A stretch of DNA of 32,251 bases, from positions 1 through 32,251 of the IMG/VR virus record IMGVR_UViG_3300022752_000251. One strand, written 5' to 3'. Both the position numbers and the translations under genes were made by a program. Shown piece after piece: positions 1,378 through 26,815 of this stretch. Origin of the DNA: a virus. The notes beneath the pieces were generated by a model that was not told where the DNA came from, ran no database searches, and saw only the letters and a program-made list of their open reading frames with translations. How positions within the stretch are numbered: the stretch's first letter is position 1; every line of letters begins with the position of its first letter.

Positions 1378-1430
1378 ATGAACTCCTTTGTGTGTTGAGT
1401 GACTGATTTCCAGGATTAGAAATCAAGAAT

Positions 1431-1462: not shown

Positions 1463-1473
1463 AAACTCAATGC

Positions 1474-1961: not shown

Positions 1962-1989
1962 AAGAAGTAGGGGGACTATTAGTAAGAGG

Positions 1990-2025: not shown

Positions 2026-2107
2026 ACGGTTATTAATTGTTGGTGTAACCTGTAGTGTAGACTCTCATTTATTTTTTTATGTTTTGTTTGGTGTGTTTGA
2101 TCTGTAT

Positions 2108-2135
2108 TTGTTTAAAATAACAAAATTGTTACAAT
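2108..2135 (+). promoter_or_regulatory. Candidate late promoter for the rightward block
   Basis: TTGTTT (2108-2113) and TACAAT (2130-2135) are separated by 16 bases inside a very A/T-rich stretch. The -10 box matches TATAAT at five of six positions; the -35 box matches TTGACA at three. The -10 overlaps the 13-base palindrome AATTGT-T-ACAATT (2124-2136), so a repressor or activator could control it. It is the best sigma-70-like site found before the terminase gene, but phage-specific sigma promoters would not be recognised by eye. Confidence 0.35.
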
Positions 2136-2144
2136 TATTTTTTA

Positions 2145-2164
2145 ACCAATGCGTTACTATTGGT
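2145..2164. other. ACCAAT/ATTGGT inverted repeat
   Basis: ACCAAT (2145-2150) and ATTGGT (2159-2164) flank eight bases, just downstream of the candidate promoter, near its expected start of transcription. It may be an operator or the first hairpin of a long late-mRNA leader. Confidence 0.3.
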
Positions 2165-2201
2165 CTGTAACGGGGTTAGTATGTATGTAGGTTCTTTTCT
2201 T

Positions 2202-2254
2202 ACAGCCAGGTCTTATGGGCTGTCTACTACTACGAAGCCCTCTAAGGGGCTTCG
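2202..2254 (+). other. Two hairpins in the late leader
   Basis: ACAGCC (2202-2207) pairs with GGCTGT (2218-2223). CGAAGCCC (2233-2240) pairs with GGGCTTCG (2247-2254) around a six-base loop. The second hairpin is terminator-like in its stem but is followed by CTATATAG rather than a T-run. It may be an attenuator, an RNase processing site or the end of a short leader RNA starting from the promoter at 2108-2135. Confidence 0.4.
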
Positions 2255-2259
2255 CTATA

Positions 2260-2285
2260 TAGTATATTAATTAATATATATACTA
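2260..2285. promoter_or_regulatory. AT-only palindrome before terminase
   Basis: The 16 bases 2263-2278 (TATATTAATTAATATA) are a perfect palindrome. With a two-base bulge it extends to TAGTATAT (2260-2267) and ATATACTA (2278-2285). It ends nine bases before the AAGGA ribosome site of the terminase gene. It could be an operator, a duplex-unwinding element or a promoter melting region. Confidence 0.35.
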
Positions 2286-2302
2286 ATAATAGAAGGATTT
2301 TT

Positions 2303-4192
2303 ATGTCTGCTAAAGCTGGTAATGAGCATCATACTAGAAAGCAGCAACGTGAAGATCAAGACAAGTTTATTTCTTTTTTAAAGCAAGGAATAGATAAAGA
2401 ATCTGCTCTTGCTGCTGTTGGAAAAAAGAATACAGTTTTAAGGTCATGGTTATCCACACCCGGCTTCGCCGAGCGCATGGAAGATGCTATTGCTTTTGGC
2501 TCTGAAGCCATGTCTTTAGCTTTAGGCGAAGATAAGCGTTCCATAGACTTTGCCACATTTTCAAAGGAATTTTTAAATACCGAGGTGTTTCCACACCAGC
2601 AAAATTGGATTGATGTTCTTGAGGGGCGCGACCCTTCTTGGTTACATGAAAGCATGATTTATGAACCAGGCAACCGCCGTAGGCTTTTAATTAACGTTCC
2701 ACCCGAACACGCCAAATCCACCACCATGACGGTCAACTACGCCGTTTACCGCATTGCCCTAAACCCTAATGTTCGTATTGTGGTTATTTCTCAAACCCAG
2801 ACTAGGGCTAAAGAGTTTTTGTACTCTATTAAACAAAGGCTTACTGAAGAGCCATGGCTAAAGATGCAGCAGGTATACGGACCAGCTAATGGCTACAAAG
2901 AAACGGCTGATCAATGGACAGCCGATAGAATTTACCTAGAGCGTGACTCAGGTGAAAAAGATCCCACCGTTCAAGCGTTGGGTGTTGGTCAGCAAATTTA
3001 TGGTACACGTGCTGACCTAATCATCATGGATGACATCATCTCTACGACAAACGCCCATGAGTGGGAGAAGCAATTAAACTGGTTACAGAAGATGGTTGTC
3101 ACTCGTGTTGGTTCTACTGGCACTCTTTTAATTGCTGGTACTCGTGTGTCTTCAATTGATCTTTACAAAGAAATTCGTAGTGCTGAACATTGGACTGGTG
3201 GCAGGTCGCCGTTTACTTATCTAGCCATGCCAGCCGTTTTAAAATTCTCTGACAATCCTGCTGAGTGGGAAACTTTGTGGGCTAGGTCAGACAGACCCCT
3301 AGATGGGGCTGATGAGTATGACGATCCAGAATTGCTTACGCCAGATGTCAGTGGTCACTATGTAAAGTGGGATGGTAAGCGACTGTTTGAACGCCGAAGC
3401 GAAGTCTCCCCATCTACGTGGGCTTTGGTTTACCAGCAGCAAGACGTTGAAGAGGATGCTGTTTTCCCTCTAATTGCCGTTAATGGTTCAATTAACCGAA
3501 TGCGTAAGTCTGGTCCATTAAACTTTAACGCTCCTGGTCATCCAAACCAAGAAGGTACTTGGACTACCATTATGGGACTTGACCCTGCTATGGCAGGGAA
3601 TACTGCTGCAATTATGTATGCGTTTAACCGCACCACTCACAAGCGGTATGTGCTAGATGTGTTTAACATGTCAGACCCAACGCCACAAAAGATTCGTAGC
3701 CTTATTGAAGAGTGGACAAACAAATACCATCCACAAGAACTACGCATTGAGATTAACGCTTTTCAGAAAGCTTTTTCACTTGATGATGATCTTCGTCAAT
3801 GGCTTGCTAGCCGTGGCACGGCATTACGCGAACATTTTACTGGCAAAAACAAATGGGATACTGGCTTTGGTGTGGCAGGTATGTCGCCGTTATTTGGCAG
3901 TATTCGTGAAGGAAAGTTTCAAAACGATAACTTAATCGAACTTCCTGATAACAACAATGAACATGTCAAAGCCTTAATCAATCAGCTTATTACTTGGAAA
4001 GCTGACACTAAAGGCAAGACTGACTGTGTCATGGCTTTATGGTTCTGTGAGATTCGAGCCAAAGAACTTATACAACAAAGCTCTTTTATAACATCGCACG
4101 TTAACAACAGATACGCCACAAGGCGCAATGTAGCTCAACAAGGAATAGTTAATCTTGACGAGATGCTAGCCGATAGCGTTAATTACTTTTAG
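2303..4192 (+). CDS. Terminase large subunit
   Basis: A 629-aa packaging motor that translocates DNA into the prohead by ATP hydrolysis and cuts the concatemer. The ATPase part has a Walker A of the form VPPEHAKST (132-140; K138 is the likely P-loop lysine), Walker B LIIMDDI (239-245) and a coupling-motif-like TLLIAGTR (274-281). The RNase H-like nuclease part starts at MGLDPAM (424-430, metal-binding D427) and continues with RIEINAF (E483) and KTDCVMALW (D574). Residues ~20-75 carry an extra helix-turn-helix-like segment (FLKQGIDKESALAAVG, then W, then PGFAERM) like those of small terminase subunits. The ATG has AAGGA five bases upstream. It opens the late block and is followed nine bases later by the portal gene. 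Confidence 0.97.
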   Translation: MSAKAGNEHHTRKQQREDQDKFISFLKQGIDKESALAAVGKKNTVLRSWLSTPGFAERMEDAIAFGSEAMSLALGEDKRSIDFATFSKEFLNTEVFPHQQNWIDVLEGRDPSWLHESMIYEPGNRRRLLINVPPEHAKSTTMTVNYAVYRIALNPNVRIVVISQTQTRAKEFLYSIKQRLTEEPWLKMQQVYGPANGYKETADQWTADRIYLERDSGEKDPTVQALGVGQQIYGTRADLIIMDDIISTTNAHEWEKQLNWLQKMVVTRVGSTGTLLIAGTRVSSIDLYKEIRSAEHWTGGRSPFTYLAMPAVLKFSDNPAEWETLWARSDRPLDGADEYDDPELLTPDVSGHYVKWDGKRLFERRSEVSPSTWALVYQQQDVEEDAVFPLIAVNGSINRMRKSGPLNFNAPGHPNQEGTWTTIMGLDPAMAGNTAAIMYAFNRTTHKRYVLDVFNMSDPTPQKIRSLIEEWTNKYHPQELRIEINAFQKAFSLDDDLRQWLASRGTALREHFTGKNKWDTGFGVAGMSPLFGSIREGKFQNDNLIELPDNNNEHVKALINQLITWKADTKGKTDCVMALWFCEIRAKELIQQSSFITSHVNNRYATRRNVAQQGIVNLDEMLADSVNYF

Positions 4193-4200
4193 GATAATCA

Positions 4201-5952
4201 ATGGCATTAACCAATGAGCAGATCGCCAGTAAGGTAGATGCTCTGACCAGACGGTTCGTTGATCGTGACCGCCGTATGGCAGATATTACATCTATCCGTC
4301 GTGGCAATATGTCCGCGGTTTATCCCGACATGTTCCCTGAGGAAATGTCTAAGCCAATGATTGCCAACTTTGTTGACATTGCTGCACGTGACATTGCTGA
4401 ACTTCTAGCACCACTACCGTCATTTAACTGCACTACAACAAACGTTAATTCAGAAAAAGCAAAGAAGTTTGCAAACAAGAAAAGCATGATTGTAAACAAT
4501 TATGTTAACTTTTCTAAACTAGAAACACAAATGTACACAGGTGCTGACTGGTACATTACTTACGGTTTCTTGCCAATATTTGTTGAGCCAGACTTTGAAT
4601 CAGGTCTACCATCAATCCGAGTAGAAAACCCTATGGGTTCATACCCAGAGTTTAATCGCTTTGGCAAACTTGTTTCATTTACAAAGAAATACATTAAGAC
4701 TGTTCGGGAACTATGCATTGACTTCCCCGAATGGGAACACATCATTGTGGGTCCAATGGCTCGTGACGCACAAAGCTACGACACAACTCTTGAACTAATG
4801 CGTTATGAAGATGACGACCAAATTGTGTTGTTTTTACCACAACGAGCAAACCTTGTACTACAGCGTTCAAAGAATTTGCTTGGTCGCTTGTCTGTACGTG
4901 TTGCTCGCCGACCAGGGCTAGACATTGATGATCCTCGTGGTCAGTTTGATGATGTTCTGTGGGCACAGATTGCACGTGCTCGTTTCAGCCTTCTTGCTTT
5001 AGAAGCTGCAGAAAAATCTGTTCAGGCACCATTGGTTATGCCTACCGACGTTACTGAGTTTGCTTTTGGTCCAGACTCAATTATCCGTAGCAATAACCCA
5101 CAGGGTGTTCGTCGTGTAGGTTTGGAACTTCCACCGGGCGCATTCCAAGAACAGCAGATGCTTGAAAATGAAATGCGTATGGGTTCACGTTATCCTGAAG
5201 GTCGTTCAGGTAACATTGACGCTAGCATCATTACAGGTAATGGTGTTCAAGCCCTTATGGGTAGCTTTGATAGTCAAATCAAAGCAGGACAGCAAATTCT
5301 TGCTCAACTATTCCAAGAAGTTGTTGCTGTTTGTTTTGAAATGGATGAAAAATTATTTGATTTCCAAAAGGAAATGAGTGGCTCTTACAAAGGTGCACCG
5401 TACGAATTAAGTTATAAACCAACTAAAGACATCAATGGAGATTACAACATTGAGGTTCGTTACGGTCTTATGGCTGGACTTGATCCATCTCGTGCGTTAA
5501 TCTTTAGCCTTCAAGCTCTTAATGCTGGTCTTATTTCTCGTGAGTTTATTATGAGTGAATTGCCGTGGAGCATTAACGTAACAAATGAACAGGCTCGCAT
5601 TGACATTGAAAAAATGCGGGATGCTTTATCAGCATCATTGCAGTCTTTAACTCAAGCTATTCCACAGATGGCATCACAAGGACAAGATCCTTCAGACATT
5701 GTGGCAAAGATTGCTAGTGTTATTAACGCAAAGAAGAAGGGTCTTAGCATTGAAGACGCGGTCACGGAAGTATTCGATCAAGAAGAGACTGAAAGCCCTA
5801 CGGCTCCAGAAAGCCCTGTAGAGCCACCAGAAGCTCCAGTTGGTCCACAAGTACCACCTGAGGCTCAAAACGCCCCTACAGCCCCTACAGGGGCTCCTGC
5901 GGCTGCTCCTGATGTGTCGTCTATTTTGTCAATGCTTGGTGGTGCTAGTTAA
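4201..5952 (+). CDS. Portal protein
   Basis: A 583-aa protein directly after the terminase gene with a good SD (TAGGA, six bases before the ATG). Length and position suit the portal, the dodecameric ring at one capsid vertex through which DNA is packaged and ejected. The N-terminal ~500 residues are mixed alpha/beta with the conserved-looking MFPEEMSKPMIANFVDIAARD early segment and a helical region around 330-400. The last ~60 residues are very rich in proline and alanine and end in SILSMLGG, a flexible tail. The stop overlaps the next start by one base (TAATG). No cleavage site or fused domain is seen. Identification rests on position, size and general likeness to podovirus-type portals. Confidence 0.88.
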   Translation: MALTNEQIASKVDALTRRFVDRDRRMADITSIRRGNMSAVYPDMFPEEMSKPMIANFVDIAARDIAELLAPLPSFNCTTTNVNSEKAKKFANKKSMIVNNYVNFSKLETQMYTGADWYITYGFLPIFVEPDFESGLPSIRVENPMGSYPEFNRFGKLVSFTKKYIKTVRELCIDFPEWEHIIVGPMARDAQSYDTTLELMRYEDDDQIVLFLPQRANLVLQRSKNLLGRLSVRVARRPGLDIDDPRGQFDDVLWAQIARARFSLLALEAAEKSVQAPLVMPTDVTEFAFGPDSIIRSNNPQGVRRVGLELPPGAFQEQQMLENEMRMGSRYPEGRSGNIDASIITGNGVQALMGSFDSQIKAGQQILAQLFQEVVAVCFEMDEKLFDFQKEMSGSYKGAPYELSYKPTKDINGDYNIEVRYGLMAGLDPSRALIFSLQALNAGLISREFIMSELPWSINVTNEQARIDIEKMRDALSASLQSLTQAIPQMASQGQDPSDIVAKIASVINAKKKGLSIEDAVTEVFDQEETESPTAPESPVEPPEAPVGPQVPPEAQNAPTAPTGAPAAAPDVSSILSMLGGAS

Positions 5953-6185
5953 TGTATGACGAGTTCATGCAAAAACTAAGAAACCTGCTAGACGAATATA
6001 GCCAAACAGAACACAAAGACGGTGCAATGTGCACCACATTCTTTTTAACCGCAGAGTTTATAGACGGTGACGGTCAATACTTTGCAAATACTTTTTATAA
6101 CCAAGACGGTACTCCACTTTGGAGAATTACTGGTTTAGTGCAACATGCACTAGAAAACGATTTTAATGTAACAGAAGAGGAATAA
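5952..6185 (+). CDS. Hypothetical small acidic protein
   Basis: A 77-aa acidic protein (MYDEFMQKLRNLLDEY...) whose ATG overlaps the portal stop (TAATG), so translation is likely coupled. It has no cysteine cluster beyond one residue and no membrane segment. The middle (FFLTAEFIDGDGQYFANTFY) looks like a beta-hairpin and the C-terminus is helical and acidic. Its place between portal and the head proteins suggests a head-assembly or virion role. The family is not recognised. Confidence 0.75.
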   Translation: MYDEFMQKLRNLLDEYSQTEHKDGAMCTTFFLTAEFIDGDGQYFANTFYNQDGTPLWRITGLVQHALENDFNVTEEE

Positions 6186-6186
6186 T

Positions 6187-6615
6187 ATGCCTAGAGGTGG
6201 ATATCGCAAGCCAGGTCAACCAGCTGCCGTATCTGGTCCAGGTAAACTTTCAAAGCGTACAGATGGTAATCCAGATCGTGGACTGCCAGCAAATGGTGAT
6301 TATGGATATCGTAAAGAAACTCGTGAGCAGATGTCTGCTGCACCTATGGCGCAAAATTTTCAGCCCACTCCGACTGCATCTGTTAGTATTCCGTCTGCTC
6401 CAACTCCTATTACTGGTATGTTTGCCCCAACAGAACGACCAGACGAACCAGTAACTTCTGGTAGTCCTATGGGATTTGGTCCAGGACCAGAAACATTAAA
6501 TCTTCCACAAACAACTTTTAACCCCGTCCAAGCTTTATCTCGCATTGCTGCTAATGATCCATCAGGTCAAGTAGCAAATATTTTGCAGGATTTAAGTAGC
6601 AGGGGTATTCAATAA
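6187..6615 (+). CDS. Gly/Pro-rich head-region protein
   Basis: A 142-aa, low-complexity protein beginning MPRGGYRKPGQPAAVSGPG. It is rich in Pro, Gly, Thr and Ser, with a short helical C-terminus (VQALSRIAANDPSGQVANIL). Proteins with this type of basic, Gly/Pro-rich start between portal and scaffold are common in phages of Actinobacteria, where they are hypothetical. The SD AGAGGA lies in the last codons of the previous gene. The stop overlaps the next start (TAATG). It is probably a minor or unstructured virion component; no enzymatic motif is visible. Confidence 0.8.
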   Translation: MPRGGYRKPGQPAAVSGPGKLSKRTDGNPDRGLPANGDYGYRKETREQMSAAPMAQNFQPTPTASVSIPSAPTPITGMFAPTERPDEPVTSGSPMGFGPGPETLNLPQTTFNPVQALSRIAANDPSGQVANILQDLSSRGIQ

Positions 6616-9600
6616 TGGCAGAAACTCCTGTTACTGGTTTTGATATTTTAAATAATACTCCACCACCTTTAAACATGCCTACGGTTTCACCTTTGGTTTC
6701 ACCCGAAACAGGCATGTCTCAACTAGCTAAAAGAAATATTCATCCTTTAGTTGCTTCAGTTGCTCCTGCTTTGTACATTGCAGCATCGGCTACGCCCTTA
6801 GCACCAGAAGAACAAAACCTTGTTGAAAACTGGTCAAAAGTAAAAGATATACATGACAAATTAATGTCATTGCCAAATAACAAAGCAATGGAACAATTTA
6901 AACTTTTACAACCAGATTATCAACAAGCATTAATTCAATACTATGGCGTTGATTACGGAACAAAACCAAGTAATACGGATTTAATTGATTCTCCCGAATG
7001 GCAACAGCAACAAACAAAACAAGATCAAAATAAAAGTCTTTGGGGTCGTACACGCGAAATAGTAGCTAGCCCATTTCGTGCAATTTTGCATGGTGCTGAA
7101 TCTTATTATCAAGTTTTAATGACACCTATTCATGCACTTGAAAATGCTGCAATTAACAATCAGTCATTTTGGTCAAAGAAAAATTGGGATGCTGCATACA
7201 ACGGAAAAATGTTGTATGACAATAATGAACTTGACAAACTAATGAACGAGTATGGTCAAGAAGTTTCATACCTTGCTACACATGTTTTGGCTGGTCAATC
7301 TGTTGGCGATATTGTTAAACAATACGGTTCAAAAAATAAAGCAATGCTTGATGAAGTCAGCAAATTAATGAATCATCCAGAAGAATATAATTTTATTCTA
7401 GAAAAATTTTCTCAAGCTAGATTGTCACCTGGTCGTGATATGGCACGGTGGACGCTTAAATCTTTTGGCATGAAAACTTCTGAACATGCTGGACTGTTTA
7501 AAAGTATTTCTGGTGTTATTGATGCAGCAACTAGTATTCTTGCTGATCCACTAACGTATTTAACTCTTGGTGGGTCTAGTATGCTTAAAGGTGCTAGCAC
7601 ATCAACTAAACTTGCTGAAAATCTTTTAAGAAGTGAAAGTATTGATCTTCATTTTGCAGATCCTAAAGTTGCAGCTTTTTGGACTGGCTATAGTGAACAA
7701 ATTGATTTGCTTAAAAAGGCTAGAGCAGAAAAAGATTTTAAAAAAGCAGCAGAAATAAGCGACAATATTTCTTTTAATTTTGCTGAACATGGAACAAAAG
7801 CGGAACAAGAAGTATTTTTATCTGCTGCAAAAGCGCAAGATATTGCTGCTGGTAAGGTTGTTCCATTTGATGCTAAACAATATTTTTCAGATGCAAATAA
7901 TCTTAATCAATTAGTACGTGGTTTATCTTCTAATACTTTACATACAAGAGAAGGCGCTGCATTTGCTCGCACATCTCGCGCTCGTACTTTAGGTGCTAAA
8001 AGAAAAGCAGTAGAATTTTTTGTTGGTGAACCTAATTTTGCAAAACTTGATAAAGATGGAATAGACAAGTTTCTTGATGATGCACAGCAATTAGGTGCTG
8101 ATCGAACTGGTGTTCTTGATTATTCTGAAATGGATAAATTTGTTGAGCAACATACAGAAAAAGGTTTTAAAGCTTTTCTTCGTAGGCAGACAAGTTATGC
8201 TCCTGGTTCTGGTGCAGTTAATGTAACAGATGATGGTGTTGCAAAAACTATTGAAACATTTAGACGACAAGCATTTGTTGCTTTAAATGATAGAGTTCTT
8301 GCTGATACTATTGCTCAACATTTTCTTGAATGTTCACAAGCAGAACGTATTAACATTAAAAGATTTATTGATGAAACTACGCTTCGTCGTTTTGGTGTTC
8401 ATAATATGGGCACAGAAGGCAAGCGTTTTATGGATGAAATGCTTAATGCTAAATATGGTAGTAAAGATTCTTTTACGGCACGAGAAAAACTAGAAATTCC
8501 TGAACACTTTAAAACTGCAAATGCTGGACAAACTGTAGAATCACAGGGTCCATTAATGTCACATCAGTTTCAGGATGAAATTCGTCCACTTGATTGGCGT
8601 AGAGTAAAAGAATTTACTGCTGGCAAATATCGAGGAAGCAATCTTGCCGAAGAAAGCAACATGGAAAAAGCTTCTCGTATTATTGGTGGAGCATATTCAA
8701 ACAAAATTACAAATGCTATTACTGATATTTGGTCTGTATTAACACTTGTTCCGCAATTAGGTATTCGTACTGCAATTGATGAAGGTTATCAATTTGCTAT
8801 GTACTTAAATCTTCCAATGTCAAAAGAGTTTTTTGCTGCACGATCTGCTAAAAATATTAATCAGGCAATTACCGGTGCAAAATCTGGACCTGCTAAAGAA
8901 TTTTTATTTGGAGCATTAAGTAAAGCAGTTGGTAAACCACTAGGTGCATCTAAATTTATTAGCCAAGAAGAACGTGTTGCAATTCAAACTAAGCTTTTAG
9001 AAGATCTTTCTAAAAAGTCTGGCACTATGGGCGACTTCCATAAGATGTATTTAGATGAACTTTACAATATGGCTGTTGCTAAGTATGGTAAAAATCTTTC
9101 ACAAGAAAATAAAATTTTATTAAAACAATTAACGGATGCTAATCCGCGTTCGATGCTTGATAGTACGTCTTCTCGTAACATTTCTTCTGCAATGATTGGT
9201 AGACCAGAAGACGGTTTCAAAACAGATGCAGGATTTTTCCCACAGGATGCTTTAAATAAAGCAATGGAAGATCACGGTAAAGAAGCAACTGGATTTTTTA
9301 ACTCTATTCGAGCAGACAGTATGTCACAAACTGATTTACAATTGCATATGTTCCGTCAGTTTGTTACTCACTTTAACGCTCATAGTTTTGAAAAATTTAA
9401 TCACAGTTTATCGTCAATAAAGCATTCAGATCCTATTGCAATTTTCTTAAAAAACGATGGATTGAAGACTTCTAAAAATGTTGAACAAGCCATTGACAAT
9501 TTTCTTAGTGGTTTTGGAATTAGAAGAAACCTAACAAGTGGCAATTATTTTTATATAAACGAAGAAGCTGCTCAAAAAACTCGTAGCTTTATTAATAGCA

Positions 9601-11879
9601 CCACGCAATTTGATAAATACCGCGACATGGGTGAAATAGAAAAAGTAAAAGCTTTTTCAGAAGAAATGTTTGCAAACATATACAACGTATTTCATGGTGA
9701 TGCTAACCAATTTAATCAAAAACTTATGGATTATTTTGGTCCGTTTGTTTACGGTAAAGTTAACGATCATCGTATTCTTATTAATCAAATGGAATTTGAT
9801 AAATACAAAGAATTAACTGAAAACTTTTTAGCTAAAGGTAGAATTTTTACAGATCTTGAAGCACCAAATAAAAGTTTTACACAACTTGTAAAAGAGTACG
9901 GTATCAATGGGGCATACGATGCTATGGCTCGACAAACAGATAACATACTTCGTCAACCAGCAGTTCACATGCATTACTTGTATTTTAGAAAACAGTACAA
10001 ATTGTTTGAAGAAAAGTATGCAAAACAAATTTCTGATGACATATTTGAAAAAGCAATTGCTAAACATACAAATCCGTCAGAAAAACTTATTGCAAAAATA
10101 CAATTGCGAGCAAATCTGCAAGGTGAAGAAATAGCGCAAAAAGTATACACTCATAAAGCTATGAATGATGCTGCTAATCATATGTTAAAGTTTTCTGATA
10201 ACCCAGAAATGCGTACTATCTTTGCAGATAACATTCGAGCAGTTGGTCGTTTTTATCGTGCTGTTGAGGATTTTCATCGTAGAAGTTATCGTCTTGTACG
10301 CGATAATGGTCTTGGTACGTTATACAAAATGCGATTAATGAATCAAGGTTTTGCTGCGGTAGGTAATATTCACAAAGATGATAATGGTGATCAATTTGTC
10401 ATTTTACCATTTGATAATATTATTTATGGTGCTGTTAACAACACTATGCGTTTATTAACTGGTAAAGAAGTTGGCGTTAATCAACCGATCTTTAATAACA
10501 TTACGTTTAAATTGTTAGCTGGAAACCCATCATTTCAAACTGATGCTGGTATGCCTTACCTTAGCGGACCATTAGGTGCTATTTCTGTTATGGCTGCTAA
10601 GGGTTTATTGTCTGTTCCAGATGTTACATTTACTAATAAATTAACAAATGAATTAGACAATTTTGCTTTAGGTAGTTATGGCGATAACATTAATTTACAA
10701 AAAGCATTAATGCCTCGCATTACTCAAAACATTTGGAATGCTTTAAATCCAGACGAACAATCACAACAAGAAGTGTCTGCTCTTACTCAGGCTATTTGTT
10801 ACAACGTAGCAAATGGTATTAATGTTCCTAATCCTGAAGATCCTAAGTATCTTAATAATGAAGCTTTGTTTAACAAGGATAAAGCAGATTATTTAAATCA
10901 ACTTAAAATATCTGCACACAACATTATTGTTACTCGCTCACTTCTTGGAACGATTTTGCCAAGTACGGTACAGTTATCAGATACAAAGGACTTGCCTGAT
11001 TATTTAAAGAGTGCTGGCTTGCCATCAATGCAAGCATCTTTTTATGATGTACTTGATGCTGTTAAAGAAAAATATCCAGAGGTTCAAGAACCAATTGAAA
11101 TGGCATTAGCTACTTGGATTGGTGATAATCCAGGAAAACTTGTTTACACTTTGTCAAAAAAAGACAAAGAGATTACTCCAATTATGAAGTTTAGTAAACA
11201 AATGGAAACTTGGGTTATTGAAAATAAAACTGGCGTTAATAAGTATGGTGCTGGTGCAGTTTTGTTTGCACCTAATACTGGTAAATTTAATCCCGGTACA
11301 TATAATTTTATGGAGTCAGCAGGATTAACTTCTCATGTTGATATCAAAAACTTTTTTGATAAAGCATTACTGCAATCAGCAGCAAATAAATATTATGACC
11401 TTGGCAGAGAAGAATCAACTGCATTAAGAACTGTTCCATTTAATGACATGAATATGCGTAGGGCAGTCATTAATCAATACACACAAAAACGTTCAATGCT
11501 ACAATATAGTGTTTCTGGATTAAAAGAATATCTTCAAAGTGGTATAGCAAATCAAGATGCTTACAACTTTATTGAAGATGCTCATGCTTTTGTTAATGAA
11601 AATCCTTCATCAGTTAACAAAGATATTCTTGAAAAAATTAATACTGCTTATGCACTTTACAATAATTTTATTGAAGCTGTTAATCAATATGATCAATGGG
11701 ATGTACCTAATTCATCAGAATTAAAACAGTCTGCTAAAGCAGCACTTGAAAATCAAATGAAACAATTAATAGCATCTGATGATTCTAAAGTTATAGAACA
11801 ATATTATAACTATGGAATTAAGAAAATTGCTAACGAACATGTACGAGATAGTTCAGGAAGCTTGACAAGGAATTACTAA
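6615..11879 (+). CDS. Very large putative inner-virion (ejection) protein
   Basis: A 1754-aa protein, by far the largest gene here. It is mostly helical and polar, with long Lys/Glu/Gln/Asn-rich stretches. Hydrophobic patches occur near 45-62, near 300-325 (DAATSILADPLTYLTLGG) and near 697-733 (ITDIWSVLTLVPQLGIRTAI). I see no transglycosylase or peptidase catalytic motif. It starts at the TAATG overlap with the previous gene and stops in a TAATG with the next. In podovirus-like phages, very large helical virion proteins are typically DNA-ejection or internal core proteins that leave the capsid with the DNA; that is the best inference. A tape-measure protein is less likely, because no tail-tube or chaperone genes surround it. 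Base composition is more AT-rich than in the capsid gene. Confidence 0.85.
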   Translation: MAETPVTGFDILNNTPPPLNMPTVSPLVSPETGMSQLAKRNIHPLVASVAPALYIAASATPLAPEEQNLVENWSKVKDIHDKLMSLPNNKAMEQFKLLQPDYQQALIQYYGVDYGTKPSNTDLIDSPEWQQQQTKQDQNKSLWGRTREIVASPFRAILHGAESYYQVLMTPIHALENAAINNQSFWSKKNWDAAYNGKMLYDNNELDKLMNEYGQEVSYLATHVLAGQSVGDIVKQYGSKNKAMLDEVSKLMNHPEEYNFILEKFSQARLSPGRDMARWTLKSFGMKTSEHAGLFKSISGVIDAATSILADPLTYLTLGGSSMLKGASTSTKLAENLLRSESIDLHFADPKVAAFWTGYSEQIDLLKKARAEKDFKKAAEISDNISFNFAEHGTKAEQEVFLSAAKAQDIAAGKVVPFDAKQYFSDANNLNQLVRGLSSNTLHTREGAAFARTSRARTLGAKRKAVEFFVGEPNFAKLDKDGIDKFLDDAQQLGADRTGVLDYSEMDKFVEQHTEKGFKAFLRRQTSYAPGSGAVNVTDDGVAKTIETFRRQAFVALNDRVLADTIAQHFLECSQAERINIKRFIDETTLRRFGVHNMGTEGKRFMDEMLNAKYGSKDSFTAREKLEIPEHFKTANAGQTVESQGPLMSHQFQDEIRPLDWRRVKEFTAGKYRGSNLAEESNMEKASRIIGGAYSNKITNAITDIWSVLTLVPQLGIRTAIDEGYQFAMYLNLPMSKEFFAARSAKNINQAITGAKSGPAKEFLFGALSKAVGKPLGASKFISQEERVAIQTKLLEDLSKKSGTMGDFHKMYLDELYNMAVAKYGKNLSQENKILLKQLTDANPRSMLDSTSSRNISSAMIGRPEDGFKTDAGFFPQDALNKAMEDHGKEATGFFNSIRADSMSQTDLQLHMFRQFVTHFNAHSFEKFNHSLSSIKHSDPIAIFLKNDGLKTSKNVEQAIDNFLSGFGIRRNLTSGNYFYINEEAAQKTRSFINSTTQFDKYRDMGEIEKVKAFSEEMFANIYNVFHGDANQFNQKLMDYFGPFVYGKVNDHRILINQMEFDKYKELTENFLAKGRIFTDLEAPNKSFTQLVKEYGINGAYDAMARQTDNILRQPAVHMHYLYFRKQYKLFEEKYAKQISDDIFEKAIAKHTNPSEKLIAKIQLRANLQGEEIAQKVYTHKAMNDAANHMLKFSDNPEMRTIFADNIRAVGRFYRAVEDFHRRSYRLVRDNGLGTLYKMRLMNQGFAAVGNIHKDDNGDQFVILPFDNIIYGAVNNTMRLLTGKEVGVNQPIFNNITFKLLAGNPSFQTDAGMPYLSGPLGAISVMAAKGLLSVPDVTFTNKLTNELDNFALGSYGDNINLQKALMPRITQNIWNALNPDEQSQQEVSALTQAICYNVANGINVPNPEDPKYLNNEALFNKDKADYLNQLKISAHNIIVTRSLLGTILPSTVQLSDTKDLPDYLKSAGLPSMQASFYDVLDAVKEKYPEVQEPIEMALATWIGDNPGKLVYTLSKKDKEITPIMKFSKQMETWVIENKTGVNKYGAGAVLFAPNTGKFNPGTYNFMESAGLTSHVDIKNFFDKALLQSAANKYYDLGREESTALRTVPFNDMNMRRAVINQYTQKRSMLQYSVSGLKEYLQSGIANQDAYNFIEDAHAFVNENPSSVNKDILEKINTAYALYNNFIEAVNQYDQWDVPNSSELKQSAKAALENQMKQLIASDDSKVIEQYYNYGIKKIANEHVRDSSGSLTRNY

Positions 11880-18659: not shown

Positions 18660-18826
18660 CCGCACTAAAAGTTTGGGATAGCGGAACTAACCAATGGGTT
18701 TCAATGACATTAACCCAGCAAAACAATGTTAAGATTTCTACATCTGCACCAACGGATACTTCTCAACTTTGGGCTGATCCTAATGACGTTACTTACACAG
18801 TTGCTATTGATGGTGGTTCTGCATGA
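18656..18826 (+). CDS. 56-aa fibre-module mini-protein
   Basis: A short gene joined to both neighbours by ATGA overlaps (18656-18659 and 18823-18826). It encodes 56 residues: [19 protein letters not shown], then a linker and [17 protein letters not shown]. The start repeats the [14 protein letters not shown] start of the next fibre, and the second part repeats the APxxxxQLWAD module of the previous one. Its perfect coupling and clear paralogy make it a real gene despite its size. It may be a separate small fibre subunit or a remnant of module shuffling. Confidence 0.8.
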
Positions 18827-20376
18827 GTGCTTTGAAATACTATGACACCACAACTGGCACTTGGAAGTATCTTGCCCAAGGCGTTAAAGGTGACAAGGGT
18901 GACAAAGGTGACACTGGAAACAATGGCAATGATGGCCAAGGTGTACCCACAGGTGGTACTACTGGTCAAGCTTTAATCAAAAACTCCAACACTAATTATG
19001 ACACTACTTGGACTACTTTATCCACAACTCCTTCTGGTAATGCTGGTGGAGATTTAACAGGAACTTATCCCAATCCAATTCTGAGTTCTGTTGGAACTGC
19101 TGGTACTTACACGCAGGTAACTACCGATTCCAAAGGTCGTGTAACGGCTGGTTCAAATGTTGTTTCAGTTAAAGAAAAATTGCTTACTGCTTTAACCAAC
19201 ATGGTTGGTCCAACAAATGCAATTCCTGCCGCAGATACAAGTTTGGTCTCAAGTACTAGCACTTCGGCAATTACTGGCGCAGTTGTTTATGCTTACAATA
19301 GTGGCAAATTTACATTTCGTGGTTTGAACCCAAGCGTTATTACTAATAGTAATAGCACAAGTTACTATCGAAACAATGCAACGCTGAGCAGTTCTGATCC
19401 AATTTACAATCAATTTTGGGTAGAGTTTGATTACTACGGTTCAAACTTTGACATTAGATACAACAACAATCAGCCTGGTGCAAACGCTGGGTATTCGCAA
19501 CTTTGGATTTGGGTTGACGGCGTTCCTACAAGTTCAACTGCTGTTTCTGCATCTGCGACATACAATCAAGACAGATACTATCAAGTAGTTTTTCCATCTG
19601 CCAAACAGCGCCGAATCCGCATTTTATTAGGTGGCCTTGATTTTGGTGGCATTGGTTTGAAAGATGTTACTGAAACTATTTTTCCAGTTAATCAAAAATT
19701 ATTAAAGGTAGCATTTTTAGATGCTTCTTGGTTTGCTGGTGGCAATGGTGGAGTTAGCGCACGAAACCTTGCAAATCAACTTGCTGTACAGTACGGCGAA
19801 ATGCTGAATGTTGATTACTACAATCTTTCCGTAGCTGGTACTGGTTATGTAAGAGGAAACAACACTGATCCAATTCTTAATGTTGTTACAGATAGCGGTG
19901 CTAATGGAGAAAACTGGTGTAGCTCTAATAGGTTATCGCCATTGACAACCATCCAGCCAGATTTAGTTGTAATCCAAGGAACAACTAACGATGATACTTT
20001 AGTAAGTTCGTATTATCAATTAGGCAATCATGCTACTTATGTTTACGACTACATTAAAACCAATTTGTCCGATACCAAAATTATTGTTTTTACTCGTGGG
20101 TCAAATACAAACACAAGTCAAAACGCAAGAGATAATGTGGCGGCTGTTACTGCTGCTGCTAATGCTCATTCATCTGTTATTGGTGTAGTTGACATTTACA
20201 CCGAGGGCTGGGTAACTGGAACATACACAGATTCAACTTCAACAGGAACTCAAGGTAACGGTCAAATCTACATCAGTGGTGGTGATTTGCATCCAAACGC
20301 CGCTGGTAACAAATACTACGCAAGCCGCATGTTTGACAGAACTTACGACATTATCAAGAACTACGCAAGGAGTTAA
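18823..20376 (+). CDS. Tail fibre with C-terminal SGNH hydrolase domain
   Basis: A 517-aa fibre enzyme. Order: [14 protein letters not shown] start (1-15); collagen-like [16 protein letters not shown] (23-38); a [11 protein letters not shown] ... [11 protein letters not shown] fibre module (75-110); a beta-rich region (120-290); then an SGNH/GDSL-type esterase domain (293-517). In the hydrolase, block I reads [10 protein letters not shown] with the nucleophile S302 in place of the usual GDS context, block III is GTTND (386-390) and block V is DLHPN with D488 and H490. The triad is therefore present. Such domains deacetylate or cleave esters on host surface glycans during adsorption. The start is ATG in an ATGA overlap. 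Substrate cannot be told from sequence. Confidence 0.88.
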
Positions 20377-20378
20377 TA

Positions 20379-21371
20379 GTGCCACAGATTACACAGATTC
20401 AAGTTCGTAGAGATCCAGCTTCTACGTGGACTTCTGTTAACCCCACATTGGCTTCTGGTGAAATTGGATTTGAAACTGATACTGGTAAGTTAAAAATTGG
20501 TACAGGTTCTACTGCGTGGAACTCTTTAACTTATGTTACCGATGGATCTAAATTAACCGGTACTATTGCTGCTAGTACAGCAACTACTGCTACCAATGTT
20601 TCAGGAATTGTACTTGGAGCTAACGGCGGAACTGGTGTAGCAAATACTGGCAAAACTATTACCGTTTCTGGAAACACTACTGTTGGCTCTAGTACCAATA
20701 CTGTAAGTCTTGCAACAACAGGTAACACTTCTGTTACTCTGCCTACAAGCGGAACGCTAATTGGCTCCAATGATTCTAAAACAGTAACAGCCACAATGCT
20801 GTCGGATTACGCAACGGCACCAACATTATGGTTTTCTAAAGATGCAGACATAGGTTTGAACAATGGCAACAATGTTGCTAGCACCACTTACGACTGTTTT
20901 AATTTAACGAACGGTGTAACCGTTGCAAACAGTTCTCTTTACTACGTTGATTACTGTATTTTAGGAACTATTGCAAACGTTACTGGTGCAAGTCAGTCTA
21001 TTCGTATGACCATTGCTGGTAATGCTGTTGCTAATTTTAATTTTGCTACTGCGCTAGGTATGGGTGCACTTGCATCATCTACTGGTAGTACCTTTGCTTT
21101 ACAAGATCAATTAGGTTACATAAATGTTGCAAACACTACGTACTCCATTGGCGCTGTCACAAGTTCGCAAACTGCTATGAGTTTTAGTTTAAGTTTTCGA
21201 GGCGTATTAAGAACAGGCGCTACGGGGCAATACTTTCAGCCTAAAATTGGCGTAAATGCTGTTTCTGCTTCTGGCACAACTATTACGGTATTGCGTGAAT
21301 CTTATGGTTCGCTTCGATTAATTGGTTCATCATCTCCTGACTTCAAGTACCCAACAGGTTCGTGGTCATAA
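20379..21371 (+). CDS. Tail-fibre protein with Mtd-N-like head
   Basis: A 330-aa protein starting at GTG with AAGGAG six bases before. Residues 4-50 (IQVRRDPASTWTSVNP ... SGEIGFETDTGKLKIG ... STAWNSL) are of the Mtd N-terminal type, paralogous to the same module in the 188-aa fibre gene upstream. The middle (55-140) is Thr/Val/Gly-rich beta repeat. The C-terminal ~190 residues look like a globular beta receptor-binding tip (ANVTGASQSIRMTI ... YSIGAVTSSQTAMSFSLSF). It is likely a trimeric receptor-binding fibre. The stop overlaps the next gene by one base (TAATG). Confidence 0.85.
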   Translation: MPQITQIQVRRDPASTWTSVNPTLASGEIGFETDTGKLKIGTGSTAWNSLTYVTDGSKLTGTIAASTATTATNVSGIVLGANGGTGVANTGKTITVSGNTTVGSSTNTVSLATTGNTSVTLPTSGTLIGSNDSKTVTATMLSDYATAPTLWFSKDADIGLNNGNNVASTTYDCFNLTNGVTVANSSLYYVDYCILGTIANVTGASQSIRMTIAGNAVANFNFATALGMGALASSTGSTFALQDQLGYINVANTTYSIGAVTSSQTAMSFSLSFRGVLRTGATGQYFQPKIGVNAVSASGTTITVLRESYGSLRLIGSSSPDFKYPTGSWS

Positions 21372-22249: not shown

Positions 22250-22528
22250 ATGGTCGATCCTCGTCTTAAACGTGCTGGAGTATCTGGTTACAATAAACCC
22301 AAGCGTACTCCTAGTCACCCTACTAAGTCTCATGTTGTTGTAGCTAAAGTTGGTTCACAAGTTAAGACGATTCGTTTCGGTCAACAGGGTGTCTCTGGCT
22401 CGCCTAAAAAGAAAGGTGAGTCAGAGGCATACCGTAAACGTCGTGAGTCTTTTAAAGCACGACATGCAAGTAACATCGCTAAAGGCAAAATGTCTGCAGC
22501 GTATTGGGCAGATAGGGTGAAGTGGTAA
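22250..22528 (+). CDS. DUF6321-like basic phage protein
   Basis: A 92-aa basic protein: RLKRAGVSGYNKPKRTPSHP, then SHVVVAKVGSQVKTIRFGQQGV, then ESEAYRKRRESFKARHASNI ending in KMSAAYWADRVKW. This order is characteristic of a small phage family (I recall it as DUF6321) widespread in marine and freshwater phages and in actinobacterial phages. The ending with RHxxNIxKGKMSAAYWAxxVKW is well conserved in such proteins. Function is not known; its high charge suggests nucleic-acid contact. The SD AAGGA precedes the ATG by about six bases. Confidence 0.85.
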   Translation: MVDPRLKRAGVSGYNKPKRTPSHPTKSHVVVAKVGSQVKTIRFGQQGVSGSPKKKGESEAYRKRRESFKARHASNIAKGKMSAAYWADRVKW

Positions 22529-22767
22529 TGGCTGTTGGTTTACAATTTAATTTAAATCGTGTTATTGGTAATACTATGACTGGTCCTACTTGGTATGACG
22601 CACAGAAAGCTGCCAATGTTTGGGCTAGTACTCCTACTTACCTTGATCTTCTTGGTGCTTTAAATTATAAAGCCGGTACATCTGGTCTTGGTTTAAATGC
22701 TGTTTGCAATTTACTTGCTGGTACTACTGGCTTAGATTCTGACGGTGCTTCTGAATTTTTTAGTTAG
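22528..22767 (+). CDS. Small neutral virion-associated protein
   Basis: A 79-aa protein starting at ATG in the TAATG overlap with the previous stop; an upstream GTG would add two residues and is not needed. It has the segment VIGNTMTGPTWYDAQKAANVWASTPTYLDLLGALNYKAGTSG, which looks like a compact helical domain with Gly-rich turns, and one cysteine. No membrane segment or motif identifies it. It stands between the basic cluster and the 1037-aa gene and is probably structural. Confidence 0.75.
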   Translation: MAVGLQFNLNRVIGNTMTGPTWYDAQKAANVWASTPTYLDLLGALNYKAGTSGLGLNAVCNLLAGTTGLDSDGASEFFS

Positions 22768-22775: not shown

Positions 22776-25700
22776 ATGACTGTTCTTAATGTAGAACCTA
22801 GTCCTAGTCCTGAACCATCACCAACTCCTTCTCCGTTGCCTGATGAAAAAGGTCTTTGGGGTCACATAGCAGATGTTGCTGATTTTCTTTTTGCCACTAA
22901 ATCTCTTGGTCGTTTATTTACTGGTCAAGGTAGTTGGGGAGATGCTGCTGCTGTTGGTATTACTGCTGCTTCATTCTTTATTCCACCTGTTAAATTATTA
23001 AAATTTGCTGCTAAACCTTTAGAGTCTATTGTTGTTCATGCTGCAGAGGTTGCCGCTTCTGATACCGCTAGTATTGTTGCAAAAAATGCTGCCGAACTTA
23101 CTGCTAAAAATGCTGAATACCTTTTAAAGAATCCTGAAAAACATGCAGAATTAATTCGCTTAACTAATCTTCATGCAAATGATCCTGAAGCTAGTGTTTT
23201 TAAATTACATGACCTTTCAAAAGAATTAGATTATTTTTTTGAAACTAATAAATCACCTTATGAATTTAAAATTATTCCACCTGTACGATTAATAAAATAT
23301 GGTATTGAACCTTTAAAAAATCTTATTACTTTAACTGATAAAGTTATTAATTCTGGTGTTGGAACTGCTACTAAAAAAGCTGCTATTAGAACAAGTGAAA
23401 ATGCTCGTTGGCTTCTTGATAATCCAGAAGAACATAAACAGTTGCTTGAAATAGCACTTTCTAAAAATACTCATGGAATAAAAAAATTAACAAATCTTTC
23501 TGAACAAGCAAAATTTTTTCTTCGTCATGGCGAACCATATGGCGGATACCTTCCAGAGCTTGAAAAAGTTCCAATGTCAGATGAACTTAAAGAAACTTTA
23601 AAAGCTCATGCAGAGGCTGATAGATTTACTAATAGCTATGATCGAGGTTTATTTGAAGAAGGTTTATTGGAGCATCATCCAAATGCATTTCAACCTGATA
23701 CTTTTGATGAATTAGAAGATGTAAGCTTAACAATGAGTGATATGCGAAAAGGTACAAAGTACCCTAAGTATCCCAATTTAACTCAAGAAGAAGTTAATGA
23801 TCTTAGACGAGCTGGTCATGGTGAAGATTATATTAAAGCTTATGATGAATACATTGGCAAGCTTGATAAAGATGAACTTGTTAATGAAGATAAAATTCGT
23901 CAGTTTAAATTTAATAATAAAAAAAGTGAAGATGAATATCTTTTTGAAGAAGGTCAAGATATTAATCTTAAAGGACAGAAACTTGACTGGGCTGTTCAAC
24001 ATCAAGCCAGTATGGATGAAAATGGAAATCTTGTTTTAACTGAACTTGAAAATGCTGGAGATAAAATTAAACCTTTATCCACGGCAGAGTTCATGGGCAT
24101 TGTACCAACGCCTAAACGTTTGAATAGTGCTGCTAGATCTTATCCTTCTGAGATACGTGCAGATGTTGGTAACTCTGCAAGTAACTGGCTTAATGCTAAA
24201 ATGTTTGGAACTTCAGAACAGATTGCTAAAGCTGAACGTTTGTATAATGCTGACAAAGATGCTTTAAGGAAAGCGTTAAATAGTTCTAAGATTACTCCTC
24301 ATGCTGCTATGGCTATTAAAAAGGAACAACAAAAAGATCTTGTTGATAAAATTTTTAAGAGTGTTATTCCTGAGTTTAAACCTAAGAATCCTTATGCACG
24401 TTCTGCATCTAAAAGACTTAAACCAACTAGTGAAGTTGATCCACGTATTACACAGGATGTTGCTAAAAAAGTTACAGTGTTTGACAGAATTACACATGTT
24501 GAAAATATTTTAAAACGAGAGCAAATAGATTTTCTTCCTGAAAGTAAACAATATCAAAAACTTATTAAATCTAATTATGATTTAAATAATCCTAAAGAGT
24601 TAGCAGAATATAACGACATTATAAAAAATTATAAAGATGAACTTGTTAACTTAAAAGAATTACAAGTAAAACATGTTGAGTCTGTGCAATCATTTGTTAA
24701 AGATCTTGATGATAATGGTATTAAGTATTTTGTCAGGATGCTTAATGGTAAACCTTTAAAGGAACTTGAATCATTAGATCATCATGTTTATATTAATTTG
24801 TTGCGTGATATTTTTAGGCAAGCTAAAGCTGATGATGTTAAACGATCTGTTGCTACATTAGGTAAACGATTTAAGTCTCTTCAAGATGATGCACTTAAGC
24901 AGCAAAATAAATTAGAGATGGAAAAACGTCTTTCACGTAATGCTCCTTTAGTAAAAAATAATACTTCTTTAGATCGCAATGAAGAAACTTTGGCTAAAGT
25001 TCAAGCTATGGCTAAACCTGAACCTAAAGAACCAGAAGTTGTTGCTGAAACTTTATCTAAAGAAGAACGCCTTGCTGCAACTAAAGCTAAAGTAGAAGCT
25101 CTTGCTAAAACTAAACCTGCTGAAGTAGTTGAAAAGAAAACTGTTGGTGATACTGGTGATGTTGTTAGATGGAAGAGTTTAACTTCTGCTGAACAAAAAG
25201 ATGTTGTTTACATTGGTCGTGGTTCTGGAGACAAAGGCAAGTTTGGCAATCCATTTCCTGTTGGCAATGGTGTTACTGTTAAAGAAGCAGTTGATAAATA
25301 TCGTTCTTGGTTATGGGACAAAATTAAATCTGATCCAGAATATGCTAAAGAACTTTATGCCCTTAAAGGTAAACGACTTGCGTGTCCAGGATCTGAACCT
25401 AATGACGCTTGCCATGGTCAAGTAATTCTTAAAGCAATTGAATATTTGGATAAACATCCAGAGTTAATGTCTAAGTCTGCAACAAAAGGATCAAGTTGGA
25501 GTAGAGCAGCAGATGACGAAATTCTTGTCTTTGGTTCTAACCTTGAAGGTCGTCATGGCAAAGGTGCAGCACTAGAAGCTAGGGAAAGATTTGGTGCTAA
25601 GCAAGGTCAAGCTCGTGGACGACAAGGTCAGTCATATGCTATTCCTACTAAAGATCTTAAAGTCAATAAGGGTCTTCCGTTATCTTCAATTAAAAAAGAT

Positions 25701-25889
25701 ATTGATGAATTTCTTGATTACGCTGAAGCACATCCAAATGAAAGATTTTTCTTTAGTGCTTTAGGTACTGGTCTTGCTGGTCATTCTCCTAAAGATATTG
25801 CTAGTTTAATTTCTAGAACTCCAAGCAATGTTAGATTTGATCCTAAAATTGGTGATTTAATTGGTAAAGAAACGGTGAAAGGTAAGTAA
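22776..25889 (+). CDS. 1037-aa fusion: repetitive body, DUF4326-like and macro-like domains
   Basis: A 1037-aa multidomain protein. Order: Pro/Ser-rich start (1-25); a ~95-aa segment present twice in tandem (~70-165 and ~168-262, each beginning PPV[KR]L[LI]K); a charged helical body (270-800); a DUF4326-like domain (~806-885) with YIGRGSGDKGKFGNPFPVG, AVDKYRSWL, and a C..ACHGQVI end; and a final domain (~912-1020) with EILVFGSNLEGRHGKGAA, SYAIPTKD and FFSALGTGLAGHSPKDI. DUF4326 proteins and the FGSN...GRHG family are usually separate small proteins; the latter resembles macrodomain-type proteins that bind ADP-ribose or related nucleotides. Possible roles are a virion-delivered nucleotide enzyme, or a structural protein that has picked up these domains. 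Good SD (AGGA). Confidence 0.85.
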   Translation: MTVLNVEPSPSPEPSPTPSPLPDEKGLWGHIADVADFLFATKSLGRLFTGQGSWGDAAAVGITAASFFIPPVKLLKFAAKPLESIVVHAAEVAASDTASIVAKNAAELTAKNAEYLLKNPEKHAELIRLTNLHANDPEASVFKLHDLSKELDYFFETNKSPYEFKIIPPVRLIKYGIEPLKNLITLTDKVINSGVGTATKKAAIRTSENARWLLDNPEEHKQLLEIALSKNTHGIKKLTNLSEQAKFFLRHGEPYGGYLPELEKVPMSDELKETLKAHAEADRFTNSYDRGLFEEGLLEHHPNAFQPDTFDELEDVSLTMSDMRKGTKYPKYPNLTQEEVNDLRRAGHGEDYIKAYDEYIGKLDKDELVNEDKIRQFKFNNKKSEDEYLFEEGQDINLKGQKLDWAVQHQASMDENGNLVLTELENAGDKIKPLSTAEFMGIVPTPKRLNSAARSYPSEIRADVGNSASNWLNAKMFGTSEQIAKAERLYNADKDALRKALNSSKITPHAAMAIKKEQQKDLVDKIFKSVIPEFKPKNPYARSASKRLKPTSEVDPRITQDVAKKVTVFDRITHVENILKREQIDFLPESKQYQKLIKSNYDLNNPKELAEYNDIIKNYKDELVNLKELQVKHVESVQSFVKDLDDNGIKYFVRMLNGKPLKELESLDHHVYINLLRDIFRQAKADDVKRSVATLGKRFKSLQDDALKQQNKLEMEKRLSRNAPLVKNNTSLDRNEETLAKVQAMAKPEPKEPEVVAETLSKEERLAATKAKVEALAKTKPAEVVEKKTVGDTGDVVRWKSLTSAEQKDVVYIGRGSGDKGKFGNPFPVGNGVTVKEAVDKYRSWLWDKIKSDPEYAKELYALKGKRLACPGSEPNDACHGQVILKAIEYLDKHPELMSKSATKGSSWSRAADDEILVFGSNLEGRHGKGAALEARERFGAKQGQARGRQGQSYAIPTKDLKVNKGLPLSSIKKDIDEFLDYAEAHPNERFFFSALGTGLAGHSPKDIASLISRTPSNVRFDPKIGDLIGKETVKGK
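22983..23561 (+). repeat. Tandem ~95-aa coding repeat in the 1037-aa gene
   Basis: Two consecutive segments of the protein align by eye: PPVKLLKFAAKPLESIV ... ENAEYLL-like part KNAEYLLKNPEKHAELIRL and PPVRLIKYGIEPLKNLI ... ENARWLLDNPEEHKQLLEI, followed by L-HDLSKELDYFF and LTNLSEQAKFFL. DNA identity is low, so the duplication is old or the repeat is under structural constraint. Confidence 0.6.
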
Positions 25890-26815
25890 TGCCAACATTT
25901 AATCAGTTAGCAGATGAAGTAACTCGTAAGTTGTCAGGCTTTACACTACGCCAAGATAGACAAACACATTTAACTGCCGACATAACTGCATCAACTGGAA
26001 CAATAAACATTGCTGATGCAACAAACATTTCTGCTGGCATTATTCAGATAGATGATGAATTAATTTACATTGATTCATTTGATCGTGATACCGGTAACCT
26101 TACTGTTGGTGGATATGTAGACGCTACTAGCACAAACCTTTATGGTCGTGGTTATAACGGTACTACAGCATCAGCACATAAAAAAGGTACTAAGGTTATT
26201 ATCTCCCCAACCTATACAGCCGTAGATGTTAAAGCTGCTATTAACGAAACTATCCATGCAGTTTATCCTGAACTGTATGCTAGTGATCAGTATTCATTTA
26301 AGTATCGTCCTGCTCGTTTAACCTATGAACTACCTGCAGAACTAAAGAAAATCATTATGATTTCTTACGAGTCTATTGGTCCATCTAAACAATGGATTCC
26401 TATTCGTTCGTATCGTCTTGATACTGCAGCAGACCGTACTGCTTACCCTAGTGGTAAGACTGTATCTCTTTATAGTGGTATTGTGCCAGGTCGTACTATC
26501 AATGTTCATTACTCGCACATCCCTACCACACTAGAAAATGGTAGCGATGACTTTGAATACACTACTGGTTTATCTGCTTCGTCTAAAGATGTAATTGTTC
26601 TTGGTGCAGCAGCAAGGCTGGCTGCATTTATTGATCCTGGTCGTTTGACTTTTGGTTCTGCTGAAGCTGACCAGCAGTCACAGATTGCTGGACGTGCTTA
26701 CGGTGCTGGTACTAATGCTTCTAAATATTTGTATGCATTGTATCAACAGCGTCTACAAGAAGAAGCACAGCGTTACCAAGACGAGAACAACATCCGTATC
26801 CACTACTCACTATAA
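25889..26815 (+). CDS. Head-tail adaptor / tail tubular protein A-like
   Basis: A 308-aa protein with N-terminal beta-rich part (LTADITASTGTINIADATNI ... IIQIDDELIYIDS, 28-60), central helical/beta part including AINETIHAVYPELYA, and a helical C-terminus (DVIVLGAAARLAAFIDPGRL ... YGAGTNASKYLYALYQQRLQ). This C-terminal pattern and position match adaptor (gp11/gatekeeper-like) proteins of podovirus-like phages, which seal the portal after packaging and carry the tail nozzle. The ATG overlaps the previous stop (TAATG), with the SD in the KGK codons. No enzymatic motif. It is followed by a fibre and a large beta-rich tail protein, in agreement with this call. Confidence 0.75.
   Translation: MPTFNQLADEVTRKLSGFTLRQDRQTHLTADITASTGTINIADATNISAGIIQIDDELIYIDSFDRDTGNLTVGGYVDATSTNLYGRGYNGTTASAHKKGTKVIISPTYTAVDVKAAINETIHAVYPELYASDQYSFKYRPARLTYELPAELKKIIMISYESIGPSKQWIPIRSYRLDTAADRTAYPSGKTVSLYSGIVPGRTINVHYSHIPTTLENGSDDFEYTTGLSASSKDVIVLGAAARLAAFIDPGRLTFGSAEADQQSQIAGRAYGAGTNASKYLYALYQQRLQEEAQRYQDENNIRIHYSL

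Follow-up and report, generated by a model that had tools for sequence, protein, structure and literature searches.

The locus described here raises the question of why a phage protein of 1037 residues, encoded among structural genes, should end in a DUF4326 domain followed by a macrodomain. The window, meaning the whole stretch of DNA analysed, comprises positions 1 to 32,251 of the 32,251-base virus record IMG/VR IMGVR_UViG_3300022752_000251. It carries genes for a terminase, a portal, a scaffold-like protein, a major head protein and an Mtd_N protein, together with an endolysin/endopeptidase-like gene. Among known phages, the Streptomyces podoviruses (Beephvirinae) and ct2KA10 have similar head and tail genes. 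The initial annotation had described the 1037-aa ORF at 22776-25889, its DUF4326-like and then macro-like C-terminus, and its place within the structural block. The frame is open, the two domains stand in that order, and structural genes lie on both sides. The features of the locus are as follows:

22250..22528, + strand: PHROG_7595 gene, the upstream flank marker, conserved upstream of slot members
22522..22767, + strand: PHROG_27452 gene, directly 5' of the ORF; it adjoins the slot in contigs L002 and L097 too
22776..25889, + strand: whole ORF, 1037 aa, with N-terminal module, helical Lys/Glu-rich body, DUF4326 and macrodomain
22776..23105, + strand: constant N-terminal module, residues 1-110, common to all complete family members (13-member alignment; contig scan)
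23271..23603, + strand: internal duplication in the body, about 100 residues, in which residues ~166-276 repeat ~68-164; L002 lacks it
25188..25433, + strand: DUF4326 (PF14216), residues 805-886 (Pfam; alignment; predicted model)
25500..25868, + strand: A1S_2505/PHROG_2072 macrodomain, residues 909-1031 (profiles, model, fold matches, TARG1 alignment)
25889..26815, + strand: PHROG_7578 gene, the downstream flank marker, weakly adaptor-like; 3' of all slot members in which that side is present

The PHROG_7578 gene and the ORF overlap by one base at the ORF stop codon. Elsewhere in the window, a 1754-aa protein encoded between the portal and head genes (6615-11879, +) matches nothing in Pfam or PHROGs; the Beephvirinae have a protein of ~1635 aa at the corresponding place, and the window's protein is a candidate large ejected protein. 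A tail-region protein (18823-20376, +) matches GDSL-lipase/SGNH hydrolases below the threshold (E=2e-6) and is a possible surface-polymer deacylase. The neighbouring gene (20379-21371, +) encodes an Mtd_N domain (major tropism determinant; PF18454, E=1.4e-13) at its N-terminus.

By its predicted structure, the A1S_2505/PHROG_2072 domain is a macrodomain fold, DarG/TARG1-like by its nearest structures. It was recognised by PHROG_2072 (residues 909-1031, E=6.2e-38) and by the NCBIfam entry NF049995, 'A1S_2505 family phage non-structural protein' (residues 916-1023, E=1.8e-35). An AlphaFold2 model, built on a 51-sequence alignment of the window's domain and relatives from viral contigs, had a mean pLDDT of 90.4 and a pTM of 0.86. 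When the model was compared with the PDB by Foldseek, the top rows were TARG1, DarTG, Af1521 and DarG (probability 1.00, E 1.1e-3 to 1.8e-3). A second structure aligner gave Z 11.5 with rmsd 2.6 over 117 aligned residues for TARG1, and Z 11.0 with rmsd 2.6-2.8 over 117-118 residues for the DarG macrodomains; its leading rows were macrodomains or designs of macrodomain shape. A sequence-only profile search, weak and independent of the model, put TARG1 first (E 0.035), followed by 5e3b and other macrodomain entries. The initial description of this segment as macro-like is borne out by the model, which lies nearest to TARG1 and DarG. The same annotation had mentioned a tail-fibre name for the domain in some databases, and Pfam, PHROGs and NCBIfam use no such name. 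A tail-fibre reading of the ORF was rejected, as no tail-fibre profile in these three collections matched it.

The window's macrodomain has N922 and the catalytic-type lysine K959, which aligns with Lys84 of TARG1 (the lysine after the Thr in YYLITKK) and is K in 50 of the 51 aligned sequences. Ala or Ser stands in the family at the position of Asp125 in TARG1. Lys84 is the lysine named for TARG1 (PMC9411070), and DarG has kept the lysine alone of TARG1's Lys/Asp dyad (PMC9411070, PMC5179494). Removal of thymidine-linked ADP-ribose from DNA is reported for TARG1, DarG and SCO6735 alike (PMC9411070, PMC5179494). Copies of A1S_2505 are mostly stand-alone proteins of 113-165 aa, and the depositors of Klebsiella phage KP8 annotated theirs as an ADP-ribosylglycohydrolase. 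The window's protein matches 461 phage records, and among the matches listed all fall within its C-terminal domains.

The DUF4326 assignment, already made in the initial annotation, stands on a Pfam match well above the curated cut-off (PF14216, E=1.7e-17, 64.3 bits against 25). C870 and C879-H880-G881 are invariant among 10 aligned sequences, and the 1037 residues of the protein include no cysteine besides C870 and C879, a hint that these two may be catalytic. When both C-terminal domains were aligned together, DUF4326-only rows fell in the wrong place, and each domain was therefore given a model of its own. The DUF4326 model had a pLDDT of 89.7. Compared with solved structures, it gave no significant match and no nucleotide-binding domain; its weak rows include dual-specificity phosphatases. 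A rhodanese-phosphatase fold has been put forward earlier for DUF4326 (PMC9503650) and may still apply.

The remainder of the protein has two parts. The N-terminal module carries the motif VADFLFxxKS...GxGxWGD...ITAASFFIPP, and in the window it is moderately hydrophobic with a Pro-rich start. A profile of this module found no relative in a bacterial and archaeal genome collection, and no carrier of the module was found among phage records. The body, first described as repetitive, is instead a Lys/Glu-rich, Cys-free stretch with a single internal duplication of about 100 residues, and its length varies among family members. Residues 1-800 as a single-protein query found no relatives among viral contigs, and a two-sequence body profile returned the L002 contig again and nothing else. 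The L002 protein is the nearest relative, 72% identical to the window's ORF over its full length.

The ORF belongs to a family of phage proteins whose genes all sit in one variable slot, within the late structural operon in Beephvirinae-like viruses. The slot lies between the PHROG_27452 gene and the PHROG_7578 gene. In ct2KA10, which has the same flanks, the corresponding pair of genes is contiguous, with nothing in between, so the gene is an accessory insert. Across 75 loci with the downstream gene, a scan for the N-terminal module and a scan for DUF4326, the family comprises 17 contigs including the window, with complete ORFs in 14. Wherever that side is present, these contigs have PHROG_7578 downstream, PHROG_7595 upstream, or both. 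The slot is a general accessory-gene site. By eye, the gene before the PHROG_7578 match in L012-L087 encodes a glycosyltransferase-like protein of ~350 aa or a short Lys-rich protein. Beephvirinae such as FlowerPower encode a short, unrelated protein there. Since the slot elsewhere holds such glycosyltransferase-like genes or is empty, location in it is not in itself a sign of a virion protein.

The C-terminal sets of the family differ from contig to contig. The window has DUF4326 and then the macrodomain, and L002 has the macrodomain, DUF4326 and SLOG. SLOG is followed by DUF4326 in L058 and L192 and by NADAR in L009, L099 and L105; NADAR stands alone in L010 and L011, and SLOG alone in L102 and L108. 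L097 has DUF3626, and no recognised C-terminal domain was found in L103 and L104. SLOG is the commonest partner and NADAR the commonest alternate. The NADAR matches have E values of 1e-29 to 1e-31. The SLOG label comes from a DprA-like PHROG match (E=4.6e-8) and sub-threshold YAcAr/DprA Pfam matches, and was extended to the remaining members through mutual similarity. SopF is an ADP-ribosyltransferase. It carries DUF3626 (PMC6682159), the domain (E=1.1e-9) that ends the L097 protein (L097:6001-8709), the closest relative of the window's N-terminus, and this protein is a possible ADP-ribosyltransferase in the same slot.

Domain exchange in the slot has been recent. Identity between L011 and L105 is 98.3% in residues 1-524 and reaches 99.3% in NADAR, and the SLOG of L105, ~190 residues, has no counterpart in L011, making it a clean insertion. 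L009 and L102 are 80% identical through the end of SLOG, where L102 ends and L009 runs on into NADAR. L102 and L103 are likewise 80% identical to about the start of L102's SLOG, where L103 ends. Between the window and L002, DNA identity is 92% around the N-terminus, 94% in DUF4326 and 88% in the macrodomain, and the order of these two domains is reversed. Assembly error is conceivable for any single contig, and the variation recurs across many samples. Within the protein, DUF4326 (dN/dS 0.14) and the macrodomain (0.11) are under the strongest purifying selection; the body stands at 0.29 and the N-terminus at 0.46. The two domains are functional parts, not decaying fragments.

The same domains occur in other phages in other arrangements. 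In the N4-like phage KP8, gp14 (DUF2493), gp17 (DUF4326) and gp19 (macrodomain) are clustered separate genes, and the DUF4326 and A1S_2505 genes of G7C have been noted as similar to N4 gp12 and gp14. The A1S_2505 copy of G7C, gp14 (L194:3343-3690), differs from KP8 gp19: the GCGLAG loop is missing, and PTKD is replaced by PVRD. It may therefore be a pure binder or have no activity. L144, a 130-kb contig, encodes a 452-aa fusion of SLOG, macrodomain and DUF4326. The RNA polymerase of the crAss-like phage cr112_1 (gp004) has a fused macrodomain at residues 81-198 (E=4.3e-30), and the giant ORFs of L003 and L004 also contain one. In L004 this ORF (768-11480) encodes 3571 aa, with an intein-like stretch in its helicase-like part as judged by eye; a NADAR-like stretch seen by eye in L003 was dropped, as Pfam did not find it. 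Mass spectrometry detected three polymerase proteins of phiCrAss001, namely gp47, gp49 and gp50, in virions (PMC10172136), and none of the three contains a macrodomain. This virion polymerase sets a precedent for the body part of fusions of this kind, and is no proof for the window's phage. Among phage records with A1S_2505, 5 of 49 have DUF4326, compared with 1 of 49 in a control set, and that one is itself a slot-family member. A general link between A1S_2505 and DUF4326 is weak, since in most of the five records the genes are not adjacent.

DarT1 and DarT2 ADP-ribosylate DNA in phage defence, and their antidotes are NADAR and the DarG/TARG1-type macrodomain, respectively. The alternates in the slot correspond to the antidotes of DarT2 and DarT1, which suggests ADP-ribosylated DNA as the substrate. 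Computation gave the gene and its domains, the macro fold, the conserved catalytic-type lysine, the selection and the exchange of domains in one slot. Our overall reading, for which the chances are about even, is that the window's phage packages and delivers a macrodomain-DUF4326 protein that undoes ADP-ribose conjugates made by the host. The constant N-terminal module would serve packaging or delivery, and the protein would be made with the particle and probably packaged in it. The Cys-free charged body may tolerate threading through the portal, and the protein would enter the host cytoplasm upon infection. There, the macrodomain would take ADP-ribose off a host-made conjugate, the favoured one being thymidine-linked ADP-ribose placed on phage DNA by a DarT2-like defence. 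In sister phages, NADAR could do the same job for guanine-linked ADP-ribose from DarT1, and DUF4326 may act on a further product. NADAR does act on guanine-ADPr (PMC11543638), and packaging of Macro, NADAR and related domains in phage heads has been put forward earlier (PMC9503650). Counting against the mechanism, a phage NADAR that was active in vitro did not protect cells from DarT1 (PMC11125620). The NCBIfam label 'non-structural' and the mostly stand-alone macrodomain copies also speak against packaging. The initial proposal of a nucleotide-type enzyme in the phage particle is thus upheld in part: an ADP-ribose-type macrodomain is present on a protein whose gene lies in the structural block, and relatives with NADAR, SLOG or DUF3626 in the same slot strengthen the idea of an ADP-ribose enzyme, while its presence in the particle is probable at best.

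The same enzymes could instead act on a soluble substrate, destroying or binding the ADP-ribose signals (cyclic ADP-ribose variants and others) of TIR-type defences and playing no part in DNA repair. Burroughs and co-workers favour soluble signals as the target of phage Macro, NADAR, SLOG and DUF4326 domains, and in Thoeris ThsA it is SLOG that senses these signals (PMC9503650); SLOG is also the commonest partner in the present family. However, the substrate of the nearest macrodomain relatives (TARG1, DarG and SCO6735) is ADP-ribosylated thymidine in DNA, and the commonest alternate acts on guanine-ADPr; we regard a soluble target as a plausible but less than even prospect. It is also conceivable, if rather unlikely, that the protein is made late, never enters the particle, and protects replication or blocks competing phages inside the cell. 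Enzyme-like genes occupy the slot in other phages, N4-like phages encode the same domains separately among their early genes, and the 'non-structural' label would suit such a role. Yet the N-terminal module has stayed constant through many C-terminal exchanges, which implies a role such as targeting, and late synthesis would probably come too late against early-acting defences.

Two further explanations fit less well. A constant N-terminus with a variable C-terminus is the layout of polymorphic toxins, and L097 ends in the domain of SopF, so the C-terminal sets might attack the host or rival phages. This is improbable, as macrodomains and NADAR remove rather than attack, and the one-base overlap with the PHROG_7578 gene leaves no immunity-type gene between the two. 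That the protein is a tail or fibre component whose C-terminal domains merely bind ligands is very hard to credit. The gene does sit in the structural block, but it has no fibre-family match in Pfam, PHROGs or NCBIfam, the catalytic-type lysine and the Cys-His-Gly motif are kept, purifying selection is strongest in these very domains, and ct2KA10, with the same flanks, has no such gene. Returning to the packaged de-ADP-ribosylating protein, a wider version of that reading would make the family a polymorphic antidote: one slot and one delivery module, carrying in the particle interchangeable de-ADP-ribosylating enzymes matched to host defences. This wider version is offered tentatively. Under it, the enzyme would be a DarG-type macrodomain or NADAR, with SLOG and DUF4326 as partners, in small podovirus-like phages.

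Predictions of virion-borne counters to NAD/ADP-ribose defence have come mainly from gene context, and mostly concern myoviruses with larger genomes. The family described here is a natural swap series on one backbone, in some cases between near-identical phages, and so it can reveal which domain counters which defence. A widespread family named only 'A1S_2505 non-structural protein', which includes G7C gp14, gains a testable identity as a DarG/TARG1-type macrodomain. Earlier work had already proposed that DUF4326 associates with SLOG, Macro and NADAR and that domains of this sort are packaged (PMC9503650, PMC7824862). As far as the present data show, the new elements are a constant-N family with exchangeable ADP-ribose domains in one slot of small podovirus-like phages; domain swaps that can be seen between near-identical genomes; and, on the strength of predicted structure, the grouping of the A1S_2505 family with the macrodomains of DarG and TARG1. 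The supplement of PMC9503650 may list part of this.

Compared with DarG and TARG1 (the ALC1-like class), the predicted likeness consists of the fold (Z ~11) and a lysine at the position of TARG1 Lys84 and DarG Lys80, and DarG likewise has no equivalent of Asp125. The macrodomain here differs in being fused to a phage protein with no known DarT-binding domain, and its activity is predicted. The N4-like early genes (KP8 gp14, gp17 and gp19; G7C gp12 and gp14) also bring SLOG-type (DUF2493), DUF4326 and A1S_2505 domains together, but unlike the window's ORF they are small, separate, unfused and outside the structural block. Gp004 of cr112_1 shares the fusion of an A1S_2505 macrodomain to a very large protein, whereas its body is unrelated and its macrodomain N-terminal; phiCrAss001 has no macrodomain. 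Polyvalent proteins (Iyer et al. 2017, PMC5512222) likewise carry several conflict-type domains per polypeptide and are encoded with structural genes, and the window's ORF has several effector-type domains, L002 three. The family here has the constant-N/variable-C layout that PMC5512222 sets in contrast to polyvalent proteins, and that paper makes no mention of NADAR or SLOG. The viral NAD-ADPr network (Burroughs et al. 2022, PMC9503650) shares fusions of DUF4326 to SLOG, Macro and NADAR and the proposal of packaging, and reports NADAR as rare in small phages (0.3%). What sets the present family apart from that network is the exchange of domains in place, in one slot and on one backbone, in small podovirus-like phages.
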